This document shows positions 1 to 29,484 of a stretch of 29,545 bases of DNA, piece after piece. The notes below the pieces were generated by a model. That model was given only the letters and a program-made list of their open reading frames with translations, was not told where the DNA came from and made no database searches. The stretch lies in NCBI RefSeq assembly GCF_000003605.2, contig NW_003119425.1, positions 58,956 through 88,500 on the forward strand, written 5' to 3'. Origin of the DNA: Saccoglossus kowalevskii. Taxonomy: Eukaryota > Hemichordata > Enteropneusta > Harrimaniidae. How positions within the stretch are numbered: the stretch's first letter is position 1; each line of letters starts with the position of its first letter. A program made the translations under genes and the position numbers.

Positions 1-253
1 AGCCATCATCTCTGTACAGGCCGATCATTTTTCCGCAAATATCATGTAGCTGTGACAATAAAAAGCATCCAACTAATTCACACGTCTCTGCGCCGTCGAA
101 ACTGCCCATAGTTACGTCGAATGAGCTGGTGCTCTTCTTCTGCCAGTAGTGGCCATTATGTGATAACAGAGACTTTTTTGAATGTAGAATAATATTTATT
201 TCTTCTTCCGAAATATGGTCGTATGAAGAGGCGAAGTGTAACACTTCATACAT
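1..253 (-). mobile_element. Reverse transcriptase fragment of a retroelement (YRDD box)
   Basis: Read on the minus strand, 84 codons are open with no stop from 253 to the window edge. The stretch contains [18 protein letters not shown], a block I recall from reverse transcriptases of many aquatic-animal retroelements, followed by GLYRDDG. YRDD, encoded at 16-5, sits where the catalytic (F/Y)xDD box of polymerase motif C is expected. A TA microsatellite interrupts the reading to the right, and the rest of the protein lies off the left edge. The element family is not resolved. It lies beyond the last visible exon of gene A and is probably intronic to it. The RT assignment is from remembered motifs. 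Confidence 0.68.
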
Positions 254-256
254 ATG

Positions 257-272
257 TATATATATATATATA
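257..272. repeat. (TA)8 microsatellite
   Basis: An uninterrupted TA dinucleotide run directly borders the reverse transcriptase fragment and marks the end of its recognisable reading. Confidence 0.85.
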
Positions 273-280
273 ATGGAAAA

Positions 281-590
281 CTATTATGAGTATGATACTG
301 AAAACTGACTGATCCTGAAAACAAAATTGTGAGATATGATAAAATAATCCCACCATGGAAATAAATGTAAAAATGTCAATGTTTTGGACTTTGATGACAT
401 GAACTCACAATAATGAAAGTCTGACAAGCTTGACCATACCATTTAATGCAGCTGATGTGTAACGCATCATTTAATTAGCATGTCACAGGAAAGTATGCCT
501 GCTTTTTTTCATTTTATTTATTAGAAACATTAATTGCTACTTTTAAATTGTTTAAAGAATCCTCCCCTGGTATCCAAATGTCACATATAC
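281..590. other. AT-rich stretch left of gene A exon 6, no gene seen
   Basis: This is probably intron of gene A. Short minus-strand acceptor-like AGs occur, but none opens a convincing exon continuing the phase-1 frame that leaves exon 6 at 591. Confidence 0.5.
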
Positions 591-674
591 CTGGAGTAGT
601 TGCATTGTCTTCGGGAGTGGTCACTATTGTCTTCTCACTGCTGTCCATTTTATTCACATAATCCTCTCCATGGC
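591..674 (-). CDS. Gene A exon 6: cytoplasmic tail, last exon in the window
   Basis: An 84-nt exon runs from acceptor TTTATTATAG to donor CCAG|GTATATG, phase 1 to phase 1. It encodes 28 residues rich in Ser, Thr, Glu and Asp (KMDSSEKTIVTTPEDNATTP). The open phase means at least one more exon lies to the left. Confidence 0.6.
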
Positions 675-3600
675 CTATAATAAAGCAAATAATTAATAAT
701 TTATCATACTTTAAATACTGTAATATATAAGTTATGCATGCTGTAGTGTTTTCCCAAAGAAGGGGGGGGGGGTGAATGGGAACATATTTTGTTTCCCATC
801 ACATTCAATTACCATGGCTAAAGTAAGGTTATCATACCTTACCTCTATCTACAACCCTGAGTTATGATATGGTGAGGTAAGGTAAGTTAAGGTATGGTAA
901 GGTAAGTTAAGGTATGGTAAGTTAAGGTATGGTAAGGTAAGATAAGGTATGGTATGGTATGGTATGGTCTGGTCTGGTATGGTATGGTAAGGTTATCATA
1001 CCTTACCTCTATCTACAACCCTGAGTTATGCAATAAAGGATTGAATATTGATGAATTGTAAATCGCAGTTTAATAATGACCGAAATTCAGAGGCAGTAAC
1101 ATTGATTACTGAGAGAAGTATATGTCTAAGTAAGAAGGTAAAATGTTCTATGTTTAAGCAACTTGTACATGATACCACTCTATATTAATGTCTATATTAA
1201 TATCATACCTGAAAGAAGTGGTCGTGTAGATCCATTTTGTCCAATATCAGGTGTCGGAGCATGATCTGTATTAAATTCACATGTATGCATGTCAATCATC
1301 AGGAGGTAACATGATTGTGGGGAAACTCCCCTTGCAAGACATTTAGCCAGCCGCCTGTCTGCCTGGCATTTCAGACAAACAACCACATTTCAGACAAATA
1401 CAAAATTCATTTGACAGGCCAAATCTTTACAAATCTGTACAATTTTCATTGAAAATAATCCACAAAAATAGACTATAAATCTATGGCTAGAGTAGCAACT
1501 TTTAGACATGCAGGCACTTTCTAATTATGCAAATTAGGTAATTATTATGCATAGATTTAAACCCCAAACTAATCAGGTGTGTGCACTGTCCTAGAGCATT
1601 CATGTACCAAGATTCATTGAAATGTAATGACTAGTACTTGAAATATCAAAAGCTTGAAAATTGACTAATTATGCAAATTAGGTAATTAATATGCACGGAT
1701 ATTACCAGTAACCTACAACCTATAAAGTCTGTGCATTGTCCTATGACATCTTTCTACCAAGTTTCATTAAAATGTAATGATCAGTACTTGAAATATCAGT
1801 GGAAAAGTAGAAAATTGAATAATCATTATGCAAATTAGGTAATTAGTAAGCATGGGTTTTTACCCAAATCTAACTAAATATGTGCATTAGTACAGAGCAT
1901 CTATGTACTAAGTTTCATTAAAATCTAATGAGTGGTCTTTAGAGATAAGTGAAACAGGCATGGAACGTACAGCTACAAAATTGCTAATTATCATGCCAAA
2001 TAGGTAATTAATAACTCTTCTAGTTTCTTGTTCATTTTAAATACACAACAATATTTGACTTGTTTGAATAATATCTAAGTTCCCTGTCATAAGTATACAA
2101 GTCATTATATATACATCTCCTTTACATGATTTAACTTGTATGAGGCCAATGTTTATTGAGGACAGTATAGGTTGTGTTGAGGGAATTATTTGTTTAAATA
2201 TAATTTTGGAATAACACTATGCATTTTCATTTTGAGCAAAACTGTAATTTTTGTCTGTACTTTTTGCATATATGCAAATTAGGCTGATAATTGTGTCGTT
2301 GATTATGGCCAACCATGGTACATGTAGTTTATATTTGTAACCATGGTTATACTTCAAGATAGAAAACTACAATGTTTTTTGATATAACCATGTTCAGTCA
2401 TGACATAGCCTTTACATCTACATTAGTCCAGATTCAAAACATAACACATTGGAAAGCAGAATTACACATGCAACCAAACATTTCTTGTTTTATAAAACAG
2501 AAAATGTATAGTATGAATAAGAGAATATGATATTTGAGAACAGAAAACAAGAAATACATACATCAAAAAGTAATTTTTTACTAAATCTTCTTGTGATTTT
2601 TAGTGAATTTTGAAAAAAATCCCCAATTTATTAACACTTACTCATGACAGGGAGAGCACAGATGCATATGGCTGTCTCACATATGCGGGGCTGCATTACT
2701 AAAAATAGTGTCAACTCGTGGGAGTGCGAGTAATTTCTATTGGTTTGCAAAGTATTTTTTTTTTTTAACATTTTTTTATTGCTTCAATAAATTAAGATAT
2801 ACAAAACAGACAGAATACAGTAAAAAAACAGACAAAAAAAACCAAACAAAGCGAACAATATGGCAAGTTATATATGTTTTCAAATAATAGAGAGTAATTA
2901 TGACTATAATTCTTCAAATGTCGACCATTTTTAATTGTGAATTTCAATTGTACCATGTTTTTTGGCAATATATTCTTCAATTTGTTGCGTTCTAGTAACA
3001 AGTGATTTTAAATTAGTGAAAACAGGCAAACATTTCTGCATCTTACACTGGTACAAGTACTGTTTTCCCAAAATCAATAAATGGTTTGTAATCTTTGAAA
3101 AATTGACATTTCCTAAAATAAAATCTTGAAGTGTTTGAAATCTGCCCCACAATGGTTTGCAAAGTCTTACACAAACAACAAATACAACAAACAGAAAAAT
3201 GATATGGTAATTACAGTTACATTTTTAGTATTATATGTTATTCACTTACCAGGTACATCTATCAATATAATTCCATTAGGATCAGATGGTGATTCGGTGT
3301 CAGCTAAACCATATGCTACACTTTTCACATCCTGATTTTGAGCTGTATACATGTATGTATTAGAAAGAGTAAAATTATTAATAAAACAATTTCCAAAAGT
3401 AATAAGTTTAAGGTCAAATTTTGACAAAAATGCTCATAATTTGTGTTTCTATAGTGTTTGGTGAAAAACAGAAACAAAGAATTCAAAGACAAGAGCATAA
3501 ATTAATGTACATGTGTATATATGTATAAAAGAAATTGTAACTTAGCTATACCATATATTGTAAGCTATTTAATTTTCACTGCTAGGATTAAATGGCATAT

Positions 3601-6600
3601 GTCATTAAATCCCAAAGTTTTGCAATAGTCATAGAACCCAGGAGAAATTGTCAATACTACAATATATCATGATTTGTACTGACATAAGTTGTCTTTGAAA
3701 CAACTTTCATCAACAATAGTCAAAGCATGTCCGAGAAATGGTTAAGGACACATGAAAATAACACCAACACAGCCAGTTCACCATTTTATATCAAAAATGA
3801 CATGTAACTGACCCACCATGAATAATGTTTATACCAAGTTTGACTGAACTCAGTCCAGGCATGCCTGAAAAACTGTTGATGACATGTTCAAATGTTGATT
3901 TTTGGTGTTTGTTTTTGGACACAAAAAAGGTCACCATTTTGAAACAAACTGATGCGCATCAGCCCCCCCCCCTGTTCTCTTGGAAAAAATTAACATGTAA
4001 CAGATGGAGCCCAATATTATATAGTTCCCTTTTTACACTGGGCATGAATGACAACCTTAATATACATGCAATATATCTTACCAGTCTTGAAAAAGTTCTG
4101 TAACCGAATTCTTAGCTTCTTATTTTTATACAAAACTACTGTAACAGCTATTACTATGATGAATAGTGAACCAACAGTCAAACCAATTATCCACCTTAGA
4201 TTGTTGCTTTTCTCAGTGTCTGAATCTTCACCTTCACTTTGAGAAGATAGCCAATCTATAATCATAAATAACAGTGAGAGTACTCTTACTTTATGATACA
4301 AACAAACATCTATCATCTTCCTGTCAGTGAAGTTGATCATAATTATTAAAGAAATATTATGGTTATAACAATTTTATTGCATACCAAAACCATGGTAGTT
4401 TATATGGTGGATATATTATACAAAATAGCATTAATTTGTGTTTACAAAAATCAGACTTCTCAAATCAAGATGTAACTGCATGAAGCCCAAAATAACACAG
4501 ACATTACTTCAGACAGTTAACATATACAGTGACTTATTAAGTGGAATGCAAACAAAAGTATTTGAGTTGGGAACGCTTATGCAAGAGTGAGATTGAAACG
4601 GGATCTTGGTATCAAGTCATGCTACTTGCAAACCCCAAGTAATGTACCTCTGATAGTACCTAGATATGGTGCTATATAGTACATGTGGTATCTGATTATG
4701 GTCATTCAGATATTTTAGCTGTTGAATGGAAATATTGATCACATGCTATGCAGTATTACCAACATGCAATATTATTGTTTTCTACATCCCGCAGAAAACA
4801 ACAACAATATTCCTCTTGTGCAACACGAGCAGCTGACCAGATATAGAAGATAATATTTGGTAATCGTAGTCCTAAATAACTATTAAAAATAGCTAGACGT
4901 TTCGAGCAATGGCTCTTTATCGATAGCATAGAAGAAAGTGTAGTGTAGTGATTTATCAGTCCGAGCAGCGTTTATTTATTTATGACCAGATATAGTGTCC
5001 ACAATAATCGCTGCTAACATGAAAACACAAATGAAACGTGCATGGTCATGAACAGTTTGGTTGGCTGGTGACTTGAGACCACAGCTATTTATATATGTAC
5101 CACAGAACAAATTTGTAAACTTCAATTCAAAAATTACAAAATGATTATTATCTATATAACTTTTGGGTATATGAAGATCTAATGTCTCCCTGATGCTTCA
5201 ATTTTTTACTTGAGATGTGCATCAGTGAATAATTGTCATGGGAACAAATCTTTATATATATCCCAAAGTTTTATAGTTAATAAGTATTAATTATATCATT
5301 AATATTTCAACATACCTTTACATTCTTCTTCCTGTACTTCGGGATGACCATCCAATACACTGCATTTATGACATTGATGTTGATACATGTAGCACCATTC
5401 ATCAAAGAGACAGTCGGTCCTTATAACACACTCATGAAGCGCTTGGTTTTTAGTGCTTTTTTCTGCAATAATAGTGACAATTAATGTTTATATTATTACA
5501 TTTCACAGCAGCTAACACATGTATATTAAATTTTGGCTGATCATAATTGTCTTATAGCTGTATAGAACTAGTACATGTACATGCATGTACCATGTAGAAA
5601 ATGAAATATATTTGATCAACTGTGAACTACACTTTATAATATTGGACACCAACAAAATTGTTATATATAGTCACTGACTATTGGTCAATATTTAATTTTT
5701 TTTCAATGGCTGCCATTTCAACTGTCAATCACAGGATATCAACAGAGAAATTTCTTAGCGCTCCATGGGACAAAAATAGTCACCAATCAGTCTGAAGTCA
5801 CCAAAACAAAAAACAAATTGACATGCATTCATCTATATATGTATACATTTTCTTTGTAGTACTAACTTTTGGTCTTTGGTACATGTATATCCACGCATAC
5901 ATGAAAAACAAAACAAAAAAAAAACATGGCCATGGCAGTCTGCAATTTTGTATCATTATCATAAAACAAACAGACGTACACTAGTAGCCTATCATGCAAT
6001 ATGTTCATACCAACTCAAATCAAACCAAGGTATGAAAAATGGTCGATGATATATTCAAAAATTGTCGTTGGACAGAGGTCAATGAAATGAAAAACAAATA
6101 GCATGTATACGTATATCATTATTAATGTCTTGTCTCTTTCAAAATTTGGATACAGCAGAAATGAATTAGGGATACATGAAAATAAAACCAACACGGCCAC
6201 CCGTTGGACATTTTGAGTCAAATCACAACATGCATTGGTACAAACAATAAACTGCCATGCAAGGGTAATTCGTCATGTGTGATGTTCATGTTTAAAGTAA
6301 AACCAGTCAAAATATTTATGTCTATAAAGAAACAAATGATGACATGTTCAAATTTTATGATTTAATTTTCTCTGTGAAAATCACTGCCAGTCCGTTAAAT
6401 TTCACCAAAATCCAAAAATATCTCAGAACATATAAACATTTCAAGTCATAATTTGGTTGAAGTTTGAAGACTTAAACAACATTAAAGATTTTTATAAACG
6501 TTAATTTTTTTTTAATTACATCTCAGTGATTATTATAAAATTGGAAATTAAACCATGAAGAAAAACATGGCAAAATATATGCACGAGAACAAAATCTGTA

Positions 6601-7360
6601 AAAAAATGTAATGCTCGGGTGATATAGATGACAAATGTGTGTTATACTTGATTTTGAGTTTTATGCATTTAGCAGAGATGCACTTTTGTAAAATTGTCAT
6701 ATTAATTAAAATTGGTCATAACCTAAAAAATAAACACTATTACAATATTAACAATAGTAGTAACAATATTAGAATTTGGAATACATTTCATTTCTTGGAG
6801 AAACAAGTTACATCCATTTATTTTGTAATCATCATTGCAAATATTTTATATTCACATAGTCATGCATGTTTGTTCTCTGCTCTGTTTACCATATAATGTG
6901 TGACAATAAAGTATTAAAAAGTATACACATACTGAGGAAAAGTGTAAAATCTGTATTAGAAGCCGCGACTTCTATTGAAATGGTACAATGCAACAGAGGG
7001 AATGCGGCGTCTATTAGAGCCATCAACACATATGAGAAATGATGAATTTTTGATTCTCAATTGTGAATGTGTGCGTCTTCTATTAGGGATGCAGCTTCTA
7101 ATACAGATTTTACGGTACTACCAGTGATACTCACCAAGTTCTTCACATTTTTGTGAGATATTCTGGCCCTGAAACTCTGAACACTTTAAGCAATTCCCCT
7201 CAGGCTGTCCAATCATTACTGGAAAGCATGTCTCATCGTGCTCACATTCAAAATCATTCATGCACGTTTCTCTTTTCAACCTTCCAGCAATTGCACTTTC
7301 CACACAAGTAATATTGAAGATGACCAGGAAAACTAAGGATATATACTTATAACTTTTCAT
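591..7360 (-). CDS. Gene A: type I membrane protein with two Dickkopf-N-like cysteine modules (six exons, 3' incomplete)
   Basis: Six minus-strand exons (7360-7135, 5462-5316, 4255-4082, 3342-3250, 1265-1209, 674-591) all join in phase 1 and give about 260 residues. Residues 1-22 are a signal peptide, followed by RLKR (27-30), a furin-like site. Module 1 (Cys 33, 39, 45, 57, 60, 72) and module 2 (Cys 87, 93, 99, 106, 109, 123) share the spacing C-x5-C-x5-C-x(6-11)-C-x2-C-x(11-13)-C. This resembles the Dickkopf N-terminal cysteine domain, but orthology to Dickkopf is not implied. A transmembrane helix spans about 146-167 and is followed by KNKKLRIR, so the N-terminus is outside. The tail is rich in Ser, Thr, Pro and acidic residues. 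NIS at 67-69 may be glycosylated. The last seen donor leaves the frame open, so the gene continues to the left. Role unknown; a cell-surface receptor or co-receptor is an inference. Confidence 0.72.
823..1030. repeat. GGTAA/GGTAT minisatellite flanked by identical 44-bp direct repeats
   Basis: The sequences at 823-866 and 987-1030 are identical over 44 bp. Between them lie about 120 bp of pentamer variants (GGTAA, GGTAT, GTTAA, GGTCT). Each flank contains the small inverted repeat TAAGGT-TATCAT-ACCTTA. The array sits in the intron between gene A exons 5 and 6. Confidence 0.9.
1209..1265 (-). CDS. Gene A exon 5: cytoplasmic tail
   Basis: A short 57-nt exon runs from acceptor TTTAATACAG to donor TCAG|GTATGA, phase 1 to phase 1. 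It encodes 19 residues (DHAPTPDIGQNG and on). The evidence is frame and splice consistency only. Confidence 0.6.
1515..2020. repeat. Degenerate tandem array, about 145-165 bp period, core TTATGCAAATTAG
   Basis: The core occurs at 1525, 1669 and 1826, with a decayed copy near 1991. Each is followed by GTAATTA, then TGTGCA(T/C)TG, then TACCAAGTTTCATTAAAATG, then AGTACTTGAAATATCA. Over three units are present in the intron between gene A exons 4 and 5. A single related core lies near 2271. Confidence 0.85.
2741..2753. repeat. Left target site duplication of the LINE insertion
   Basis: TGGTTTGCAAAGT, identical to 3153-3165, directly borders the poly(A) end of the element (poly(T) on the plus strand). 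Confidence 0.88.
2754..3152 (-). mobile_element. 5'-truncated LINE insertion (C-terminal end of ORF2)
   Basis: The minus strand from 3152 reads WGRFQTLQDFILGN, then NHLLILGKQYLYQCKMQK, then QIEEYIAKKHGTIEIHN. This resembles the C-terminal end of L1/Tx1-type ORF2 proteins. A stop at 2930-2928 interrupts the sequence just before KWSTFEEL, so the copy is inactive. The element ends in A-rich sequence (T-run at 2754-2766) and is flanked by a perfect 13-bp duplication. Tail plus duplication is the mark of target-primed reverse transcription. It lies inside a gene A intron in the same transcriptional orientation. Confidence 0.82.
3153..3165. repeat. Right target site duplication of the LINE insertion
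   Basis: TGGTTTGCAAAGT abuts the 5' truncation point of the element and matches 2741-2753 exactly. Confidence 0.88.
3250..3342 (-). CDS. Gene A exon 4: cytoplasmic tail
   Basis: A 93-nt exon runs from acceptor TATACAG to the consensus donor CTG|GTAAGT, phase 1 to phase 1. It encodes 31 tail residues including DTESPSDPNG. The 5'-truncated LINE lies in the following intron, with its right target duplication ending 84 bp from the donor. Confidence 0.68.
3747..3775. repeat. Dispersed repeat, copy 1
   Basis: The segment around ACATGAAAATAACACCAACA matches 6170-6198 with a few substitutions. It is probably the conserved core of an old interspersed repeat whose borders are not visible. Confidence 0.55.
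4082..4255 (-). CDS. Gene A exon 3: acidic stalk and transmembrane helix
   Basis: A 174-nt exon runs from acceptor TTATGATTATAG to donor ACTG|GTAAGA, entering and leaving in phase 1. It encodes an acidic Ser-rich stalk (EGEDSDTEKS), a roughly 20-residue helix (WIIGLTVGSLFIIVIAVTVV) and a basic stop-transfer segment (YKNKKLRIR). Confidence 0.78.
5316..5462 (-). CDS. Gene A exon 2: cysteine module 2
   Basis: A 147-nt exon runs from an acceptor TATTATTGCAG to a donor AAAG|GTATG. Joined in phase 1, it reads 49 codons with six cysteines (ECVIRTDCLFDEWC, then CHKC, then EEEC). It parallels exon 1, so one exon equals one module. No ATG or stop bounds it, so it was found only by splice sites and frame. 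Confidence 0.75.
6170..6198. repeat. Dispersed repeat, copy 2
   Basis: The segment around ACATGAAAATAAAACCAACA matches 3747-3775 on the same strand. Both copies lie in gene A introns. Confidence 0.55.
6944..7113. mobile_element. MITE-like element with perfect 20-bp terminal inverted repeats
   Basis: GTAAAATCTGTATTAGAAGC at 6944-6963 is the exact reverse complement of 7094-7113. The 170-bp interior repeats a motif close to GCG(A/T)CTTCTATTAG at about 6966, 7007 and 7073. It has no coding capacity and no clear target duplication. It sits in gene A intron 1, ending 21 nt from the exon 1 splice donor. Confidence 0.8.
7135..7360 (-). CDS. Gene A exon 1: signal peptide, RLKR site, cysteine module 1
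   Basis: The exon starts at the ATG at 7360, which immediately follows an acceptor-like TTTTATTTCAG. It encodes a hydrophobic signal peptide (ISLVFLVIFNIT core), RLKR, and six cysteines ending in QKCEEL. The donor is G|GTGAGT, with GT at 7134-7133, in phase 1. An upstream in-frame ATG at 7399 would precede the acceptor-like site and is less likely to be the start. Confidence 0.75.
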
Positions 7361-7375
7361 CTGAAATAAAATACA
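7361..7375 (-). other. Acceptor-like site abutting the gene A start codon
   Basis: On the minus strand ATTTTATTTCAG ends one base before the ATG at 7360. This suggests a 5' untranslated exon further right whose intron ends exactly at the start codon. No such exon could be placed. Confidence 0.5.
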
Positions 7376-7399
7376 TGTATTTGTAATAAATGTATGCAT

Positions 7400-8029
7400 T
7401 AATATAGTGACATTACCAGTCAGTTGGTGTAATAATTCAGTAATAACAAATAACGTAATTACAAATTAAACACAATGTGGATTTTTCAGTTAATTACATT
7501 AAAGTATATATATTCTACCTAATAAATAGGGGTGATAAATTGATCAACATTTTTTGTTTCAAAAGTATGACATTACTCTTAATTAGGACACATGTCATCA
7601 ATCTTTTCCATTTTTTCATAAAAAAATAATTTATCAGAATTTCCAATTTATGACAACCATCCATCATTCTATGGAGGTTTCACCCATGTCTTTTGTAATG
7701 TACACTGTACAGTGAACTTTCATTGAAACACTGAAGGGAACGTGGCGTAGATCGGGTTGATACAACAATGTACTGTCTTTATAGTGCATACTTTGTATTA
7801 TTGTTATTATTTTGTTGCATTGGCAATGCCAGTGAATTTTCACGTTGAAACTAAGATAATTTGGAAGAAACAATCGAAAACATTCAACATAATCGCGTCT
7901 ACACTATATGGGCCTTGTAATCTGTATACTGTATATAACATCAACGCGTTCACGCAACGATTTACATTTACACACACACAATATAGCGTGCAGTGGTAAT
8001 TTCAACATAACACTGTACAAAAAATAGAC
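7400..8029. other. AT-rich flank upstream of gene A, no gene recognised
   Basis: Several short ORFs exist on both strands but none has domain features or splice context. The promoter and first untranslated exon of gene A may lie here or beyond. Confidence 0.45.
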
Positions 8030-8293
8030 AAACGTGGAACTCCCTATCCTACATGATGTTAATTTTGCGATGATCGCGAGGACCATCGATGTGTAGATGG
8101 GTTGAAGCTCGTAAACCAGACAGCAATTAACGGCTTGCTGTACTGCACCCCATCTTGCTTGCGAGCTGAAGCGTAAAATTCCCACAGCAGATCGGCGAGC
8201 TCAACGACAGGAAGGTATTCAAAATTGGTGGCGTAACACGTACTCCTCATTTAGTCTGCCGTGAAGTATTTTTTTTATTTCTTGCATTTGTGA
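8030..8293 (-). pseudogene. Broken DUF3504 / Crypton-related domain fragment
   Basis: The minus strand carries LADLLWEFYASARKQDGVQY in one frame. That resembles the N-terminal block of the domain shared by ZMYM2/QRICH1/KCTD1-type proteins and Crypton tyrosine recombinases (pattern L..FY...RK.DG..Y). Flanking pieces continue it in other frames: NKKNTSRQTK upstream (8280-8250), and SGLRASTHLHIDGP then INIM-stop-DREF downstream (about 8110-8030). At least two frameshifts and two in-frame stops break it, so it cannot encode the domain. The region is more GC-rich than its surroundings. Assignment is by remembered motif. Confidence 0.55.
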
Positions 8294-10489
8294 GCACATT
8301 TAATTGGAATTCCCCGACATCGATAAAACGGGCCATCGTGTTTGCCTTTGGTGAGCTACTTTTATTTACACGTTGGACGTCAGTACCGGGTGTTTTTCGA
8401 GAAGTTGGGATTGGCCAGACGACGATTTGTGTTTGCCGTTATGGCGGGAATGACACCCATGTAAACTAAGAACAAATAATTATTTTTTATATAGCTCAGA
8501 GTTATTCATTTTCAGTTTTGATTTTAATCGTTTTCACCCCTTATTATTAAATGCCAGTCTCTTTATTTGTTTTCCGAACTCAACATTCTATTTCTATGCA
8601 CAGTACGAGGCTTTGATACTCAGTAATGCAATATATTATTGCGAATAATCTGTGGTAATGACGTCATAAAATTTGCTGGTATTGACAATGCTATAATATA
8701 AGTATAAGACAATCAATGGTATTGGTCAAAAGTGATCACATGATCAATTGATAAATATTGATATTGGAGTGTATCAGCATATTCCTTGTCTCTGATGTCA
8801 TTTTGTGTGTTACTGGCCCTCAAGTCATAACATCCGAGATACTTGGATTGTTGCAGACAATAAAAAATGATGGATGAAAATTTTTATAAGATTTTCCACT
8901 AGGGGCTAATTTTGCATCTGGCTCAAATTTTAACTGCCTTTTTTGGGATAATAAAACAGTTCGTCCCAAAGTTGACATCAGCCTCAGGCGAGACCAATAA
9001 CTGTATAGTATTCTTTTAATATTTAAACCTTAGTATTGTACATTTTCCTGTTACAATAACTTGATTTAGGATGCCCAGAAGTGAGCAAAATTTATTTAAA
9101 CTGGACATACATTATATACGTTGACGCTCTGGCTTAATGAAGATTTTGAGAGATGTACAATTGTCAATCACAAGAAGCGTACAGGTAATTCTCAATCACA
9201 TGCTATTTAAGGTGTGTGGACTTGAACATCCACAGTGTATTAGGTTATTCAAACATTATGCCATTTAATCACGTAAGATGAGGTAATGACTTTTTTCAAG
9301 CCGCCATTATCGCACTGTATCGGTACATGTAGGTGGGCGACGAAAACATTTGTCTGCATTACGGTTACTAGTAACCGTGTCTGCATCTAACTCGAGTTGA
9401 ACGTGTTCGCAGGTTGATTTATTTAGTTTCCGGGACTTATTAAAACATGTTTTTGATAACTAGCTGACAAATATGGACGCGGCGCGGGAGACTGTTCTAG
9501 AACAAACTATTGGTGTCCATTGAGTTCAGCAACATCATCATGAATCAAGACAATCTCAGTAAAAATCGGTATCCGAATATCGCGGCAATAGAAAGGGCCA
9601 ATAGTAGTACTATAACTTAGTTATTGTTCAAAACACATGTTTCGCAGTAAATATAGATATTACTCACCATTTAATTTTACGCTTTCGGGATATTTCTTTA
9701 AAGAAGAATTGCACAGCACCATGATATCACAACTTGCTTTTTAGGGGATTTCCCAAGCCTCGCTATGGTGACACTGCGCGCCCGCTTACGGTGGACATAG
9801 CATCAACTTTCTACTTTACAGAGAATGCGAAAATTGTCGCTTGGACATATTATGAAAATATTATATTCAAAACAACAATTACAAGAGAACTGGTGATGGT
9901 TGTGAACCATAACTGCCTCAGCACAAAGACTGTTGTGTATTTCAAGGGAATGTAAAGGGAAATATATTGGAATGATACCTCTGTGTAATTTACAATATAT
10001 CCGCATTAACCTTCACCGTGAAGTACAATATGGGAGTTGTCTTTAATGACTGGTAGGAGCAAGGCTGGGCACATTTTGCGAAATACATTTTTGTAGTAGT
10101 TAGTTAGAATTACCAGACACGTAATCGAGACATTGTGGGATATCGAAATATGAATGATAAGCAGCAAATGACATTTCCAGAGATATAGTTAGAATTGAAG
10201 CAAAGGAGTGGCCTATTAACCCATGAACCATACTCACACATATCTGTACATATCATCCTGTCTTATTGGGTGGTGGGGGAAAGCTGACATGTACACAATC
10301 ATAATAACTGAAATGGTCTCGGAATGGAAAACTGTTTTATTACTTGTAAAGAATTATGAACAATATAAACTGAAATTTAGAAACTATGAACAATAAATAA
10401 TGAAAATCTGTGATTTCATTTGCTGCACAGTTTTCAGTAAATTATTAACAGAACTATAAAATTTATAAAACACACAGAGATTCACTTCG
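8294..10489. other. Intergenic spacer, no gene recognised
   Basis: Mostly AT-rich, with slightly GC-richer patches near 8330-8460 and 9470-9600. The ORFs are short and overlap on opposite strands, as expected by chance. Confidence 0.5.
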
Positions 10490-12435: not shown

Positions 12436-15291
12436 CAACGTAGATTTTTGTTATTGTTCAAACATCCAACAAAGCATCTTTCATTTTTGACCGCGCAATA
12501 AGCTAGCTTTAAATTCGCAAAATCCAGGAAACGTTTTAGTAGGAGGGAGAGTAAAACATCGTTGATTAAAACAAAGTAAATCCAATAGCAGGAATACTAC
12601 TGATGTTTTCTATATATAACAGAAAGAACAGGGTCACCAGGGAGTTCTCTCCCTCTTTCCGAATGTAGCCGTTCTTGGTGATTATATAAACACACTATTA
12701 CACAAGCATCATTGAGTAGGATGCGTTCAAATGTTTTTTTCTTAAACACATGTCAATACCCCGTAATATTTCTACGCCTCACTGTTTTACCCATACACTT
12801 TGGTTGCAGCTGCAGGCCAAATCATTATTTCGTTAATGAACTTCTATTTTCCATATGTGACTTTTTAATAATCTACGGTATCATATGGTAAATGTATTGT
12901 GTGATGGAAACCTTTAATATTTGTCGCAGATTTGAACAGGTTCTATTCTTATACATCGCTATGTTATATTTTCTCCATAAATGATCACACACAAACATTT
13001 GTTCTCACAAATATATTGGACAATAGATACCCCAATAGACTTCTAATTGCATACTCACTCAAGTTACCTTAAACATATTCCCAATTACTTTTAATTATTT
13101 TTTTTTTATCTCAAAACGCTATAAAAATATAATTAATGATGACATGTGAGTGGGATATCACCCTGGAAACTGCACCCAGGGACATAATGAAAATATAATG
13201 AAACCTTGTTAATAACGCACTAATTACCCGCAATTACTATGCTCATTCAATCAATTGACACTTCTAACAATCTTTAATACAATTCGACTATATTAACCAA
13301 TTAATAAAACACAAAATTTAATTTAATGTATGTATGTGTGTGTTGTTGTTTTCAAAATGAATGATCGGTATTATCTCCACCTACACGTGTACGCAATTAA
13401 GGCAAGACACAGTATGTCAGAACTAACATGATAGAATCAAACAAAGAAGGTTTTCTGTAATATGCCAGCATATATACTAGTAATACGAGTGTTTAAAACT
13501 GGAATGGCGGACCTCGTGACAACATAGGACTGTTGATTCAAATTTCCCATAAAGTACCAGCCCGTTTGGTCTATGCAGCACAGACCAGTAATATTAACAA
13601 GAGGATCAGTTTCCCCTATTTTATCTAGACGTGCTGTCTATGGTTTAGGTTTCAAATTATTCAAATTATTAAAAAAGATGGTTTTGACAGTTTCACTTGT
13701 ACCCAATATATGTAAGAATATTCACATAGAATAAAACTAGTATACATAAGGTGACACTTATAATATCATTGTATTATTACATGCTGTACTGTGTTTGATT
13801 TCTATTTGTTACTTCTAGCAAAGAATTTCTTAGATTCGACATTGCAGAAAATGTTGTAACCATGACGCCAGTTTAGGTTTATAAAAGCAAAGGTGGTGGC
13901 CATGTTTCATCATGCAAATGACACTCCGTAATATCTAATTGGAGTGTGAAATCGTCTTTTTGATGACCAGAATGCATTGTGTATTTTATTTATTCTGTCG
14001 TAAACAATTACAAATATAGCTGTAAGCAGCAATGATTGGCACATTGATTAAGTACGTTTTATATCGATATGAAGCTGCTAAGAGTATCATGACATAGACA
14101 AGTCTATGCGAGTCCGAGCCTACTATTCTTTGTTACATGGGTTTATCGTGATTAGGTGGTTATGTCATGTCATTATACAAGGGATTATAAACAGACCATT
14201 ATTGAGACAGATATATCAGGGGAGTGAGGTAGGAATATTTTTAGCAACCAAAACAATGTTCATAGCAAAAAACAGAAAATAACATTTTGTGTTTATTATA
14301 AACCTAATTCCCACTATAATAATTATTTTATTGACCCCTAGCAAACAGTTCAAGTTCATATAAATATGTTATTAGGTAATTATAGTCCTGTAGAATATAA
14401 CCAGACGTTTTATACAATTCTCAATTCGGTGGACAATCAAATTACTAAGGACTATGATTACTGACTAGTTTCTATATATTATATTTATCTGTCCAAGCAG
14501 ATTTTTTACATATGTTCTTGACCAGTATATCTGATTCTTGGAATACACATTCACTGTGACGAGGGTTTGTTTGTGGACGTGTCCTTTAACAAATCATATC
14601 ACATCAACGTGGTTTCAATAGCTTATTGTCTGCAAGTCAGTCATTGCTGCCTGCCTCTATCTTTGTGTGTGGTTGCGATATCGATGGTTCGGGCTACAGC
14701 TTATTTATGTATCGACACCTGTTATTTTTATCAACATGGTTTTATTGTCGAATTTATACTACTATTACTGCTAATGACGAAGTTATCAGTACCGGGTGAA
14801 ACATTTATTTGCATATTAACAAGTACTGAAAAGTATATTATTTCGATCGAATTATTGATACTACGTCACCAATTAATCGGGATCTAAGCCTATAGGGCTT
14901 GTGTATTTTTTTTTATTTCTCTGGGTGGATATTACAGTATTGAAAAGAAAGAATTTGAAAATCACTTATCCTAATGCTTACTGCGCAGATGGTAGGAGAC
15001 AGAGGAATGAAGCATAACACAGCCATTGAATATAATAATGATATATTGGTGGTCAAAATGACGTAGCGATTTCTATCCTGTAAACTGATCCAATTGTTCT
15101 TGAAATAAGCATGATTGGGCTGCCAGTGGTTTACACATACACATGATTATAAGCAATTTACTGTGTGAATCTTAATTATCTTAATTGCTTTGGCGGATAT
15201 AGTTAAAAATGATGAACTGCGACAATTGAAAAGATTGTTATCAACTAACCTATTCTGAAGTGGATCGCATCATTTCCCTTTTCCCGCGAGC
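12436..15291. other. Intergenic spacer and presumed 5' flank of gene B
   Basis: AT-rich, with no recognised gene. A 106-codon hydrophobic frame at 14567-14887 has no domain, signal or splice support. No clear TATA box could be tied to a gene B start site. Confidence 0.45.
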
Positions 15292-15609
15292 ATGGCATTC
15301 CAAGTGTTGCCCTGTATATACTTTTTTGCTATCACAGTATACATCTTTAAGTGCACACCCGTGGCTAGCGTGTTCGAAAAAACGTCCGCACTCACGAAAA
15401 TTATACATCCACCGAGTTTACTACTGTGTATGTCCGCATGTATTGATCAAGGAGACATGTGTCTGTCAGTTCAGTTCAACAAGGAGAAAGCTGTTTGTGA
15501 ATTATACAGGGCGACTCTAGAAGGCAATTTTACTGAAGATGCTGCTTCACCGAGAAAAGGTTGGATTGCCAAAAATAAAATTCAAGTGGAATTTGATAGC
15601 GAACGAGAA
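15292..15609 (+). CDS. Gene B exon 1: signal peptide and PAN/apple-like domain
   Basis: The ATG at 15292 is followed by a hydrophobic stretch (CIYFFAITVYIF). Next come a PAN-like pattern with four cysteines, CMSAC, MCLSVQFN and AVCELY, and a possible N-glycosylation site NFT at 79-81. The exon ends in phase 0 at the consensus donor GAGAA|GTAAGT. An overlapping frame from 15260 lacks these features. Confidence 0.7.
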
Positions 15610-18600
15610 GTAAGTGTTAACTGTATGTAACCTGAAATTTAACATAAATGGATATTCGTTTCTCTTGATCAATACTAGCTTGATATTTGATTGGTAAATA
15701 TAACTATGTTCCAATTATACGCCCCAGTATGCATATTTTAACACCGGGGAGTTGCCCAAGACTGTGTTTTGACGATTGATATGTAGTATGTATTACATCC
15801 CCATTAGCGTATCATCGATCGTTGTGGTTTACGGTATCATCAAGATACTCATAACAATTATAATTGCCGTTTCCAACAAATTTGAAAGACTGGACCTAGT
15901 TTACATGATGTACATAATTATGCTACAAGATATGAGAAGGATCACACCTTTTAACTTGTGCTATACGTATTTTCCCCAGTGCACGCCAAGTTTTAAACTA
16001 CACCTCAGTAAGTCCTGTACGCAATCTTGTATATTGATGTGTAATACGTTTACAGGTGTATAACAATCCTTGTGAAGAAAACCCCTGCAATGACTACGGA
16101 TGGTGTGTTGCACATTCTGACCGCGATTACAAATGCACATGTAGATCTATGGATGGTTTCACAGGAATCAATTGTGATATTCCCGGTAAGTGTAGTATCC
16201 CCTCAATTTATATGTTAATAACGCTACGTAGAGGGCTTGTAATATTGCATAATATGTGTTGATATGATGAGTGGTTATATTTCGACATTGACGTATCCAT
16301 TTCTCATTGTAGTTCTGAATCATCTATGGAGTGTATGGTCGTTATGGAGCGACTGCAGTGCTACCTTTGGTATTGGATATCGTGAAAGAAACAGACAATG
16401 CACTCACGGATATGATGGCGAGATTGTTAAAGACAAAATGTGTTCGGGATATCCAGTTGAATTTGTGAAATGTTCTACTCATGATGGTGTGTTGCAGTTA
16501 TTTTCGAATAATTTAATATTATAATCAGATATTCAATGTTACATTGATTATTTTTTGCACACCAAAGTGTAACGAGTTTAATAATTTGTTATTTTTCAGA
16601 GCATTTTTTACAAATATTAATTGTCTCATAGCTATGTACAATCCTGAGTAAATGATGTTTTTTTTTTAAATTTCAGTTGACATTATCACGTCTCTAAATG
16701 AAGGTAAACTATATATATTATCATTATTATTTGCCATTACCGCATGTTTGTGGCTGCACGAGTTAACCTAATCCGAGCGATGCTTTGCTTGGGAAATTTG
16801 AAAAACTAATCAACAATAATTTATACTGGTTGTATTATGATGTATTTGTATTTAGCATTTTCAGAAATACCTCAAGCAATTCCAAGGTTAAACGGACCAG
16901 GAGATTTGATCGGCAATGGTACTCTCCAATTATTTGTGAAATGGTTTGGTGGCTGGATTGGTGTGAGTGGTGGATTGGACTTTAAAGAAGCGAAAGTTGC
17001 ATGTAAACACCTAGGATTCCCTGGTGCAATATCAGGTAATTGTTGTTTCTTTCTTCTTAACATTGAATTTTTAGTGAATGTTCTTATAGATACTTAACAC
17101 TTTTAACACGATTCCGAAATTTAAGTTCGAGTATCGACCCGAAGATCAGTAATACCGAGATGGTAACGTAACCAGCTGATAAGCACTACTGAAATTTCAT
17201 CAGTCAGCAAATCATAGAGTTTGAATTATTTATATTTTATTTATAATATTAATACGAACATTTCAAGGGTCTTTTGTTTGCGTTGATTAGCGGCTGAGGT
17301 CACACGGCTAAACGGTATCCAGGAATGTTGTACATTTACATAATTATTATGTTAATGAAAGCAGAAACGAGAAATTATTGTATTCTGTAACTCTATAAGT
17401 TGCAGAATAAGTTGTATAAATAATTAATGTATAGATTTTGATGTGCTGTAATATCTATTTATGTTTCAGCATGGTCTACCAATGTGATGACCACAGCAAT
17501 TCCAGTTGTCTGTGTTGTGAACTGTAACGGTACTGAACTATCCCTTAACGAGTGTGGGATCACCATGTCACCTAATACATACCACACATATGGCGGTATT
17601 TCATGTCTGAATTGTAAGTACCGATCACAATAACAATATTGTAGATATAATTGTCTAAAAGTAATATGCTAAATGTCTTGTTGTTATTTGTATTCATAAA
17701 TACATTTACCATATCATTTCAGACGTTGAGTGGGGTGCATGGTCCCAGTGGAGTAAATGCTCTAATTATAGGGAACGTACAAGGTCGTGTGTTGGTGTTA
17801 GCTGCCCAGGGTCATCTAACCAACAACAACTACTTTCTTTCGCTCAGACTGGCCTTGGTAAATATTGTTAGATGCATAGCTATTTTAGTACAGTATGTTC
17901 TATTGGATATACCTATTATGTGTTTTGTTATATTACAGTCAAATTCATTGGCTATATTACGTGTGTAACAATGCTTTCTATGGAAACTTGAATACAATTA
18001 GAAATTAGAATTCATGTTAGAGTCGTATCAAATACGTTATCAATTTTAATATACTTAGTTAATCGTGTGGGGTTAATAGGACCCTTCACGGGAACTTTAA
18101 TCCAATCGCGAATACCATACATGAAGACGGAATACAGTCAGTTAACCATGGTATGGTATGTGAAAACAAATCACTTACTCATTCACGCGTGATGTTGTTC
18201 CTTTGTTGATGTGCCACTTACTTAATCATGCATCTGGAGGTTTGGTCTTACCAATTTAAATCGATGTCGCACACACCATTATACTAATCAATAGTTAATA
18301 TTTGTATATGTGTATATTAGTTTAATTTTATCCATATAGACAGTATGATTCTTTTGAACAAAAATCATAGTAGGAACACAATGTGATCTGTGTTTTACGA
18401 AAGTAAATTAACATCAATGGAGGGAATGAGATCCTTCTGCATATGGGTATATATGGATAACAATATACATCTATATGGGCAGCAATCTACCAGACAAGTA
18501 TTGCCAACTATGAATCATTTTTTGTATCAAAAGCCATACAGTAATAATGACATAACTTTCTGAGTGCGTGTGGTGAATCAACATCAGTGGCCATGCATCC

Positions 18601-19794
18601 GATTGGCAGAAGGTTGTCGAAGTGGTGCCGCAAGGTTTCTCAGTTTGACCCATACTATTTATTGTATCCACAATTTACAAATTTTGAGTGAATATTATAT
18701 TGATGGCCAAGTATTTGGCGTTGTTTAAACCTCAAAAGCATTTCTATTCAACCATATAACAGTTAATTTATATAACATTTTTAAATGGCCATGTTTACAG
18801 TTACAATAATAGACAGATGATAATAGACAAGCAATAAAATACGCCATCAAACACATTTAGAAATTAGAATTAATGAGTTTGTTGCTTCAATGAAATCGTG
18901 CCCAGTTGAGCATTAACCAAATTTGTTTGATTAGCTCAACAGCTCAAAATATATAACGTGTTAGTTGTATTCATCTATGCATTTAAAAGTAACAAATGTA
19001 AAACATATGACAGGTTCACCTAAAAGACAATGACAAAGAGTGGAATTGCACAATTCCCGCCAAGTTAGAAAACCACTACAAATAGATAATAAAATTGACC
19101 ATCATATATGAATATATTATTTGATATTTGATTAATTTAATTTGTTGTTTGTCTCTCTACAACAACCCCACTCGATGATAGTTTACATTGCTGTACATTT
19201 TTCACATGAATACCAGTCCAAGGAGTCAGGTGTTCTTTAGTGACGTCATTAGCTACTACCAATAAAAGAAAAATGAAACTATGCAATGAGAACATTTGTC
19301 ATCAAGTTTACAACCCATTTACATTTACATAGGGCATTTTGTTGCACATACAAGTTGTATTTTTATCACCGAAAATCATTAATCGATCCCAAACATAGCA
19401 ACATTTTCCAACAACCTAATTGCTTCGAGCCGATTATTGCTACTTGCAGCTATATTTTAATGCTAATTTGTTGATGTTTCTTGCAAAGTACACTAGACTT
19501 GGTTGTTTTGCTGATAGTATACCCAGAGCCATACCGACTATTGAAGGAACTGATAATCATTTGAATGATGATTATCACACAAGAGCATGTGCTATTGAAA
19601 AGTGTGCGCAAGTAGCTCACGCACGTGGTTTCGAGATATTTGCTTTGCAGAACGGCGGTTGGTGTGCATCCAGTGCAACTGCAGACCAGACCTATAATAA
19701 TTATGGAAAATCCACAGGCTGTAATGCCAACGGAAAAGGCGGACGTTATGCAAGTGATGTATACCTACTTAAGGTAGAGATGCAGTTTACCTGA
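15292..19794 (+). CDS. Gene B: secreted mosaic protein, PAN-EGF-TSP1-SRCR-TSP1-(WSC-like)
   Basis: Exons are 15292-15609, 16056-16185, 16313-16486, 16677-16703, 16865-17035, 17470-17613, 17723-17857 and probably 19489-19794. The first seven join in frame to give 366 residues. Order: signal peptide (about 1-26); PAN/apple-like region (Cys 46, 50, 57, 69); EGF (Cys 112-146, six cysteines); TSP1 (155-203, WSVWSLW); microexon linker (208-216); SRCR (224-319); TSP1 (325-366, WGAWSQW). All joins from exon 2 on are phase 1, typical of shuffled modules. The ATG context (A at -3, G at +4) is favourable. An extracellular adhesion or recognition role is an inference. The last exon does not join exon 7 in frame, so an exon is missing from this model or the last domain is separate. 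Confidence 0.72.
16056..16185 (+). CDS. Gene B exon 2: EGF-like domain
   Basis: The acceptor is ACGTTTACAG and the donor is CCCG|GTAAGT; phase 0 in, phase 1 out. Six cysteines at 112, 117, 123, 133, 135 and 146 match EGF spacing (C-x4-C-x5-C-x9-C-x-C-x10-C) with GFTG before the last. No Asp/Asn calcium-binding signature precedes the first cysteine. The residue before Cys 123 is Trp, so the POFUT1 O-fucose consensus is absent. Confidence 0.85.
16313..16486 (+). CDS. Gene B exon 3: thrombospondin type 1 repeat
   Basis: The acceptor is CTCATTGTAG and the donor is GATG|GTGTGT; phase 1 to phase 1. WSVWSLWSDCSATFGIG is the TSP1 start, with two WxxW motifs that are C-mannosylation sites in this family. 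YRERNRQC supplies the Arg ladder. The usual second cysteine (CSxTCGxG) is Phe here, leaving four cysteines and no POFUT2 consensus. Confidence 0.85.
16677..16703 (+). CDS. Gene B exon 4: 27-nt microexon
   Basis: Nine codons (VDIITSLNE) lie between a strong acceptor (T-run then AAATTTCAG) and donor GAAG|GTAAAC. Phase 1 to phase 1, so it can be included or skipped without changing frame. It forms the linker between TSP1 and SRCR. Confidence 0.62.
16865..17035 (+). CDS. Gene B exon 5: first half of an SRCR domain
   Basis: The acceptor is AGCATTTTCAG and the donor is TCAG|GTAATT; phase 1 to phase 1. PRLNGPGDLIGNGTLQLFV, then GGWIGV, then EAKVACKHLGFPGA, is the SRCR N-terminal half. Confidence 0.85.
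17470..17613 (+). CDS. Gene B exon 6: second half of the SRCR domain
   Basis: The acceptor is TTATGTTTCAG and the donor is AATT|GTAAGT; phase 1 to phase 1. CNGTELSLNECG, then YGGISC, matches the SRCR C-terminal half (C.GtE.sl..C ... v.C). Cysteine placement is unusual: there is an extra Cys 288, and the cysteine normally found about eight residues before the last is absent. Confidence 0.83.
17723..17857 (+). CDS. Gene B exon 7: second TSP1 repeat (possibly partial)
   Basis: The acceptor is ATATCATTTCAG and the donor is CTTG|GTAAAT; phase 1 to phase 1. WGAWSQWSKCS, then YRERTRSCVGVSC, is a TSP1 core with two WxxW motifs. Only three cysteines are present before the donor, so a closing cysteine may lie in an exon not found. 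Confidence 0.8.
17858..19488. other. Intron region of gene B with a presumed missing exon
   Basis: AT-rich. Exon 7 leaves in phase 1, but the next recognised domain enters in phase 0, so an exon of length 3n+2 is expected here. Candidate openings (for example after 18340 or 19181) were not convincing. Confidence 0.45.
19489..19794 (+). CDS. WSC-like GCF domain exon, probable 3' exon of gene B
   Basis: After a T-rich tract and TTGCAAAG, the frame reads LGCFADSIPRAIPT, then HARGFEIFALQNGGWCASSA, then NYGKSTGC and GRYASDVYLL. This pattern recurs in invertebrate multidomain extracellular proteins. It ends in TGA at 19792-19794, unless AAG|GTAGAG at 19773 is a phase-0 donor. Five cysteines are seen. 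Membership in gene B is inferred from strand, distance and domain type, not from a matching splice phase. Confidence 0.68.
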   Translation, partial: YTRLGCFADSIPRAIPTIEGTDNHLNDDYHTRACAIEKCAQVAHARGFEIFALQNGGWCASSATADQTYNNYGKSTGCNANGKGGRYASDVYLLKVEMQFT

Positions 19795-28000: not shown

Positions 28001-29098
28001 TTAATGTCAAATGTTTCGGTAATGAAAAAAGATACATGTATCAAAAATTAAAATAGTAATTGTTGAGTGCCTACACTCAAGCTGAGTAGAATGACCTATG
28101 TCTGAGGTGTTTTATTCTAAATTTGTAGGAGGAGAAGATTTGTTATTGAAACTGAGTTATATATTTGTTACGTACTATAATTTATCTATATTGGAAAACG
28201 GTTATGGGGATTATTAATTTTAATAAACAATATTCAACTATCCTTATTTTGCAATACCAATAAGATCATAATGGTAATGTTTCTTGCTTTTTGCTATGGG
28301 CACTATCAGAGCATGGATCTTATTTTGGAACTCCTGCCAGAGCAACTGCACAAATCATTAGGGCAAATTAATAGCTTCTAAAGATGGTATTCTCAGAATA
28401 GCGCAAGATGTTAAGGAAACATAAAACAATGAAAGGACCAGTTACCAGAGTCACTGCGACAAAGCCATACTCCCCTCGAGATCCACCCAATACGAAACCT
28501 ACTTACCGCGAAAGCCACTTACTGCGAAGCTACTATATAAAATATCAATATAAAATAATATTTTACTTATGTGGGAATGTTAGCATACTGATTTTAAACT
28601 ACATTCGTATATGTCGTTTTGTTTCGCCAATGTAATGTCAGATATGGCTTTCCTTGGAACATATATTTCAATACACGTTCTGCTGCGATAACAATAGAAT
28701 CAGCTCTAACCAGATATTTGTGTATTTGAATGGAAGGTTTTTCAGTCCGATATGTGTGTGGTCTGTAGTACACTAAACACGGTTCCTGTCCCACCAGATG
28801 TTTTAGTTGAATGGAGTTCCCGGTATCCTTGAAGAACACCACGTTGTTTGAAATAGGTAAATCAATATCATACAGTGGATTGTTGTGTGACCGGGTGTTC
28901 CTGCATGCAGACATAGTATGGTTCCATGTAATAGCCATAATTCTATGTGCACATTGCTCATTAAACGGATCTATAGATGCCACTGGGAGAAGTTCAGCTA
29001 ACCGGGCGACGTTGAAGGTCCCATTAAAACTTTTCACTTGAAGATTCGCCGCACGAGAATTAAAACCTCTCTGTACAAAAAAAGGTGTCAAAACTGTC
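24927..29098 (-). CDS. Gene C: O-fucosyltransferase-like protein (three exons, both ends incomplete)
   Basis: Minus-strand exons at 29098-28603, 25760-25580 and 25043-24927 encode about 264 residues. Motifs in order: RGFNSRAANLQVKSFNGTF (like the N-terminal GDP-fucose-binding loop GxFNSR..N), LAELLPVASID, GQEPCLVYYRP, YLTLHWRNKT (Arg in the HxR position), TISEDIADIM, IYVSCSNW, and SLDGYELSLVEQEIC. These resemble the GDP-fucose protein O-fucosyltransferase superfamily, whose members act in the ER or Golgi. Which acceptor is used, or whether the enzyme is POFUT1 or POFUT2, cannot be told. The N-terminus lies off the right edge; the C-terminal exon was not found. The join of the first two exons is uncertain in phase. 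Confidence 0.6.
25580..25760 (-). CDS. Gene C middle exon
   Basis: 60 codons run from CALHLKGNTK through MCEDKIYQFALMAKTISEDI to YVSCSNWSR. The donor is AAGG|GTAGGT in phase 0. Acceptor CATTCTCAG at 25760 is strong but gives phase 2; AAAG at 25741 gives phase 0 and fits the previous donor. No start or stop bounds it. Confidence 0.58.
25761..28602. other. Long intron of gene C, no other gene recognised
   Basis: About 2.8 kb. The only repeat noted is the GCTAATTTGCATAACAAT core at 26613-26630. Short ORFs on both strands lack features. Confidence 0.5.
26613..26630. repeat. Dispersed repeat core GCTAATTTGCATAACAAT, second copy
   Basis: Exact 18-bp match to 20205-20222 on the same strand, carrying the inverted core of the array at 1515-2020. 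Confidence 0.6.
28603..29098 (-). CDS. Gene C exon (N-terminal part in window): GFNSR to HWRNKT
   Basis: 165 codons. The acceptor may be TTGACAAACAG (exon from 29098) or CCTTTTTTTGTACAG (exon from 29070). The second has the better pyrimidine tract; the first keeps VLTPFFVQ before RGFNSR. The only usable donor is AAT|GTAGTT in phase 0, before an in-frame TAA. NGT and NHT are possible glycosylation sites. Confidence 0.62.
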
Positions 29099-29484
29099 CT
29101 GTTTGTCAAGTTTAGCGTTTATAAATTATTACGTATTGTATCCACTGCTTCCATATCTCTGGACGGGAAGCAGAAATGCCTGATTTCTTATTTCGGGTCT
29201 CTTCAACTTGGTAATTAAAAATGTGGATAAACGCATTGACCCATTTTTAGTAAACAGATGTGTCGACATCCGATTTTCCATAACCCTGTAAAAATGTAGA
29301 TTTCGATTAATACCATCTCGTAGAGACATTCATAATGATTACAATAATGAAAACAATTAATAAACACACACTGGTCGCCAATTTGAAACTCGTTCCCATG
29401 ATATGAGTTGTATAAATTCACTCTATTATTATTATAGACAATCCACTATAATGATATGATCCAACGGTACCAACTCTTCTTTTG
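29099..29484. other. Right of gene C's first visible exon, no exon recognised
   Basis: Presumed intron of gene C. Two minus-strand ORFs (29329-29129 and 29421-29215) overlap in different frames and lack domain features or good splice borders. Confidence 0.4.

Follow-up and report, generated by a model that had tools for sequence, protein, structure and literature searches.

A predicted type I membrane protein of Saccoglossus kowalevskii with two six-cysteine modules in a frame shared with Dickkopf CRD1

We analyzed a 29,545-nucleotide stretch of the genome of the hemichordate Saccoglossus kowalevskii (hereafter the window; C1210:58956-88500, contig NW_003119425.1, from an assembly of 572,110,611 bases) and found on its minus strand a predicted gene for a single-pass membrane protein with two small six-cysteine modules. 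Six predicted exons between positions 7360 and 591, with GT-AG at all sites, are in phase 1 at all five joins and at the last donor and encode 260 residues free of stops (Table 1). Judged from the sequence, they are probably a real, intact and mildly unusual gene, whose product is most likely a type I receptor or co-receptor. We favor, with moderate confidence, a type I cell-surface protein whose modules, probably disulfide-bonded, would bind a partner and whose tail would recruit SH2-type adaptors. An earlier note on this DNA had described two modules, a stalk, a helix and a tail, all in phase 1, and the exon, splice and hydropathy analyses support that architecture, preceded by a signal peptide.

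The exon model was examined with a splice-score scan over positions 7134..1 of the minus strand, in which splice-site frequencies were consensus values. Of 204 candidates with an open phase 1-1 frame and a length of 40-300 bases, the five internal exons all ranked within the first seven. Six non-overlapping candidates of minus phase 1 scored at least 9, namely the five internal exons and one other; minus phases 0 and 2 gave one and two such candidates, all overlapping the same places as the phase-1 ones, and the plus strand gave none in any of its three phases. The second-ranked candidate (3864-3817, 16 aa) was provisionally left out of the model, given its poor codon score and an interspersed repeat match about 20 bases away. 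In all six exons the codon score of the claimed frame exceeds those of the other two, a comparison in which stops penalize the other frames. Per codon, the scores of exons 1-3 are ordinary (reached by fractions of 0.17-0.31 of 191 open null segments) and those of exons 4-6 are moderate (0.04-0.07).

The predicted protein begins with a signal-peptide-like N-terminus (about residues 1-25, by eye) and a furin-like RLKR at residues 27-30. Module 1 follows, with cysteines at 33, 39, 45, 57, 60 and 72 and a sequon, NIS, at residue 67, and then module 2, with cysteines at 87, 93, 99, 106, 109 and 123. An acidic stalk of 21 residues leads to a single strong transmembrane helix at about residues 146-167, assigned by hydropathy only (peak 2.77). 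Behind the helix stand a basic stop-transfer sequence and a hydrophilic tail, of which 91 residues were seen; this part has no recognized enzyme domain, and it carries YVN at residue 238, within EDYVN, which we take to be a Grb2-SH2-like motif. In the favored reading, the signal peptide is removed, perhaps with furin trimming at RLKR, and the acidic stalk bears the two disulfide modules outside the cell. Each module would probably be a cysteine-braced beta-hairpin (C1-C3 and C2-C4, as in the CRD1 subdomain of Dickkopf) closed by a C5-C6 loop. Outside the cell the modules would bind a ligand or another partner; inside it, SH2-type adaptors would be recruited by the tail through EDYVN.

The cysteine spacing is 5-5-11-2-11 in module 1 and 5-5-6-2-13 in module 2. 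The "matching spacing" asserted in the earlier note therefore holds for three of the five intervals (5, 5 and 2) and fails for the other two (11 against 6, 11 against 13). A six-cysteine pattern composed after the modules had been seen has exactly two hits in the window and none in 200 order-2 Markov windows; when the spacing is loosened, the mean is 0.035 hits per such window. Both modules fit Dickkopf CRD1 over its first five cysteines, roughly the N-terminal half, and share with it the frame C-x5-C-x5-C-x(n)-C-x2-C. Beyond the cysteines, the likeness of module 1 to Dickkopf is reached by only 1 of 300 cysteine-fixed shuffles; for module 2 the number is 15 of 300, a marginal result. By hhalign, module 1 scores 69% against the Dickkopf profile. 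Moreover, the C-x-x-D-x-[DE]-C of module 1 and the aspartate before C2 of module 2 sit where Dkk4 has Asp44 and Asp46, residues that the Dkk4 structure paper describes as present in all Dkks (PMC6078440).

Notwithstanding this likeness, the gene product is not a Dickkopf, because it has a membrane helix and lacks both CRD2 and the second CRD1 subdomain. Dickkopfs are secreted without a membrane helix, whereas this protein has one strong helix with a basic stop-transfer. The second subdomain (cysteines 73, 79, 80, 85 and 90 of Dkk4) is missing, and each module has six cysteines as against the 8-10 of a two-subdomain CRD1; ten are given for Dkk4 (PMC6078440) and eight for protostome CRD1 (PMC6425005). 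By Pfam, no colipase-type CRD2 is encoded within the six exons, and any further 3' would lie beyond the helix. The profile check suggested in the earlier note was negative: Dickkopf_N (PF04706) matched neither the whole protein nor either module at E<=10, with filters that drop weak matches, and no other Pfam family matched the modules. As a control, the N-terminal half of human DKK1 matched Dickkopf_N at 5.6e-9. The label "Dickkopf-N-like" holds for the spacing of both modules and the residues of module 1, over about half of a CRD1.

Dickkopf_N loci are present elsewhere in this genome. A genome-wide Dickkopf_N search at E<=1, in which five candidates were scored and counts are lower bounds, gave at least three other loci (L005, L006 and L007), all above the cut-off, and this gene was not among the matches. 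By eye they comprise a Dkk1/2/4-like, a Dkk3-like and a third type. Unlike the modules described here, all three carry a full CRD1; its start (CMNDKTC, CVNDDSC and CVDDNDC, respectively) is of the same form as the CMNDFEC of module 1. In L005 and L007, CRD1 is followed nearby by a CRD2-like exon; in L006 only the beginning of such a segment is seen, and it shares the CRD1 frame. The acceptor of the CRD1 exon is predicted in phase 0 (best in L006 and L007, second by 0.2 in L005), whereas exon 2 of the present gene is phase 1-1, a difference that rests on splice scores with near ties; the best donor is in phase 1 in L005 and L006 and in phase 0 in L007. The CRD1 of L007 is without the C-x2-C pair, and this locus may correspond to the "dkk5" type of PMC11414264; if it does, such a set of three Dickkopf types would suit an invertebrate deuterostome. 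Exon 1 and each of the two modules, searched against this genome, matched only themselves, and the gene is without a close relative at the sensitivity used. Distant paralogues may exist, since the initial filter let through no more than 4, 1 and 1 candidates. No such gene appeared in the titles and abstract openings listed by literature searches on membrane-anchored or unusual Dickkopf architectures, most subscription papers being outside that scope; the entries on "membrane-bound Dickkopf" include reports on regulatory T cells.

What, then, are the modules? They could be divergent six-cysteine modules of some other kind (EGF-like, EB-like or convergent), with the Dickkopf likeness a coincidence of a common hairpin frame. 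We consider this possible, though well short of probable. The Foldseek and VIA matches of the modules are weak and heterogeneous (toxins, Draxin and an IGFBP-like protein), and the marginal likeness of module 2 and the empty Pfam result point the same way. The best Foldseek match of module 1 is the C-terminal cysteine-knot domain of Draxin (5z5k), whose two-clawed plan was likened to the Dickkopf C-terminal region in a report on the Draxin/DCC structure (PMC5871715). EGF modules have C-x-C between C4 and C5. Both modules instead have C4-x2-C5, and an EGF-like identity was set aside; Pfam found no EGF match in them, and it did find the one true EGF domain of the window at 1.7e-4. By hhalign, the module pair scores 0.1% against that EGF domain, and the EGF domain scores 0.6% against the Dickkopf profile, which argues against a coincidental resemblance when set beside the value for module 1. 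LDL-receptor class A, TNF-receptor and granulin modules were likewise set aside on their cysteine spacings, and Pfam gave no match to them either. A bolder reading, which we put forward tentatively and hold slightly less likely than the foregoing, is a receptor in which single Dickkopf-type subdomains stand in tandem, each on its own exon of a phase-1 series, and in which a "one-subdomain" form was kept or re-made. The Dkk4 structure paper proposes such a form as the ancestor of the Dickkopf and colipase domains. This reading depends on two modules of unequal strength, one good and one weak. Should the modules be homologous half-CRD1 units, they would offer a living test of the proposed origin of Dickkopf and colipase domains by doubling of a single subdomain, and the receptor would be of a new type that has yet to be placed; should they be convergent, the gene would be one more lineage-specific cysteine-rich receptor.

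The cysteine frame and residues of module 1 might also suggest a Dickkopf-like Wnt modulator that is anchored in the membrane and acts on LRP5/6 or Kremen, and the earlier note had raised a Wnt-pathway role. We find that role unsupported and regard it as very improbable. A direct Wnt role is disfavored because CRD2, in which the high-affinity LRP6 and Kremen binding of Dkk4 resides according to PMC6078440, is missing; the absent Dickkopf_N match and the Dickkopf loci already in the genome also speak against it. Another concern is the gene model itself: the exons may not all belong to one gene, the tail may end at a stop in exon 6, or a 3' part (such as a kinase or death domain inside the cell) may change the function. 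The 3' end of the gene is unseen because the contig reads N for the next 20 kb. Exon 6 could alternatively be terminal, its frame continuing into the stop at 516-514, which an AATAAA overlaps, and its phase 1 donor is also usable. Given that the exons agree in phase and splice score, we judge these departures unlikely, and we retain the type I receptor or co-receptor as the preferred reading.

At the other end, the ATG of exon 1 immediately follows the acceptor-like ttttatttcag, and an untranslated 5' exon upstream is therefore likely. The CpG ratio suggests a possible promoter region further upstream (Table 1): four windows over 6501-7750 have an observed/expected ratio of only 0.38-0.50, and windows at 9001-9750 are as CpG-rich as the putative promoter (1.11-1.28). 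The intron between exons 4 and 5 contains a tandem array at 1522-1931 (period 150, 2.8 copies).

Table 1. Predicted exons and possible promoter region, in window coordinates
Feature	Coordinates	Strand	Content and splice score
Exon 1	7135..7360	-	ATG, signal peptide, RLKR furin-like site, module 1 (C33-C72); donor phase 1
Exon 2	5316..5462	-	Module 2 (C87-C123); phase 1-1; splice rank 1/204
Exon 3	4082..4255	-	Acidic stalk, transmembrane helix, basic stop-transfer, start of tail; phase 1-1; splice rank 4
Exon 4	3250..3342	-	Cytoplasmic tail; phase 1-1; splice rank 3
Exon 5	1209..1265	-	Cytoplasmic tail; phase 1-1; splice rank 7
Exon 6	591..674	-	Cytoplasmic tail with YVN; ends in phase 1; splice rank 5
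Possible promoter region	7751..8750	.	CpG observed/expected 1.16-1.20 in three overlapping 500-base windows

Elsewhere in the window, a candidate second multi-domain extracellular gene may lie on the plus strand at 15278-19794, where PAN, EGF, TSP1 and WSC pieces score above the Pfam cut-offs and SRCR and second TSP1 pieces below them. An open frame at the window edge (2-280, minus strand) resembles by eye a retroelement reverse transcriptase and has no Pfam match at E<=10. At 28594-29118 on the minus strand lies an O-fucosyltransferase-like frame (O-FucT, E 1.2e-4, below the Pfam cut-off).
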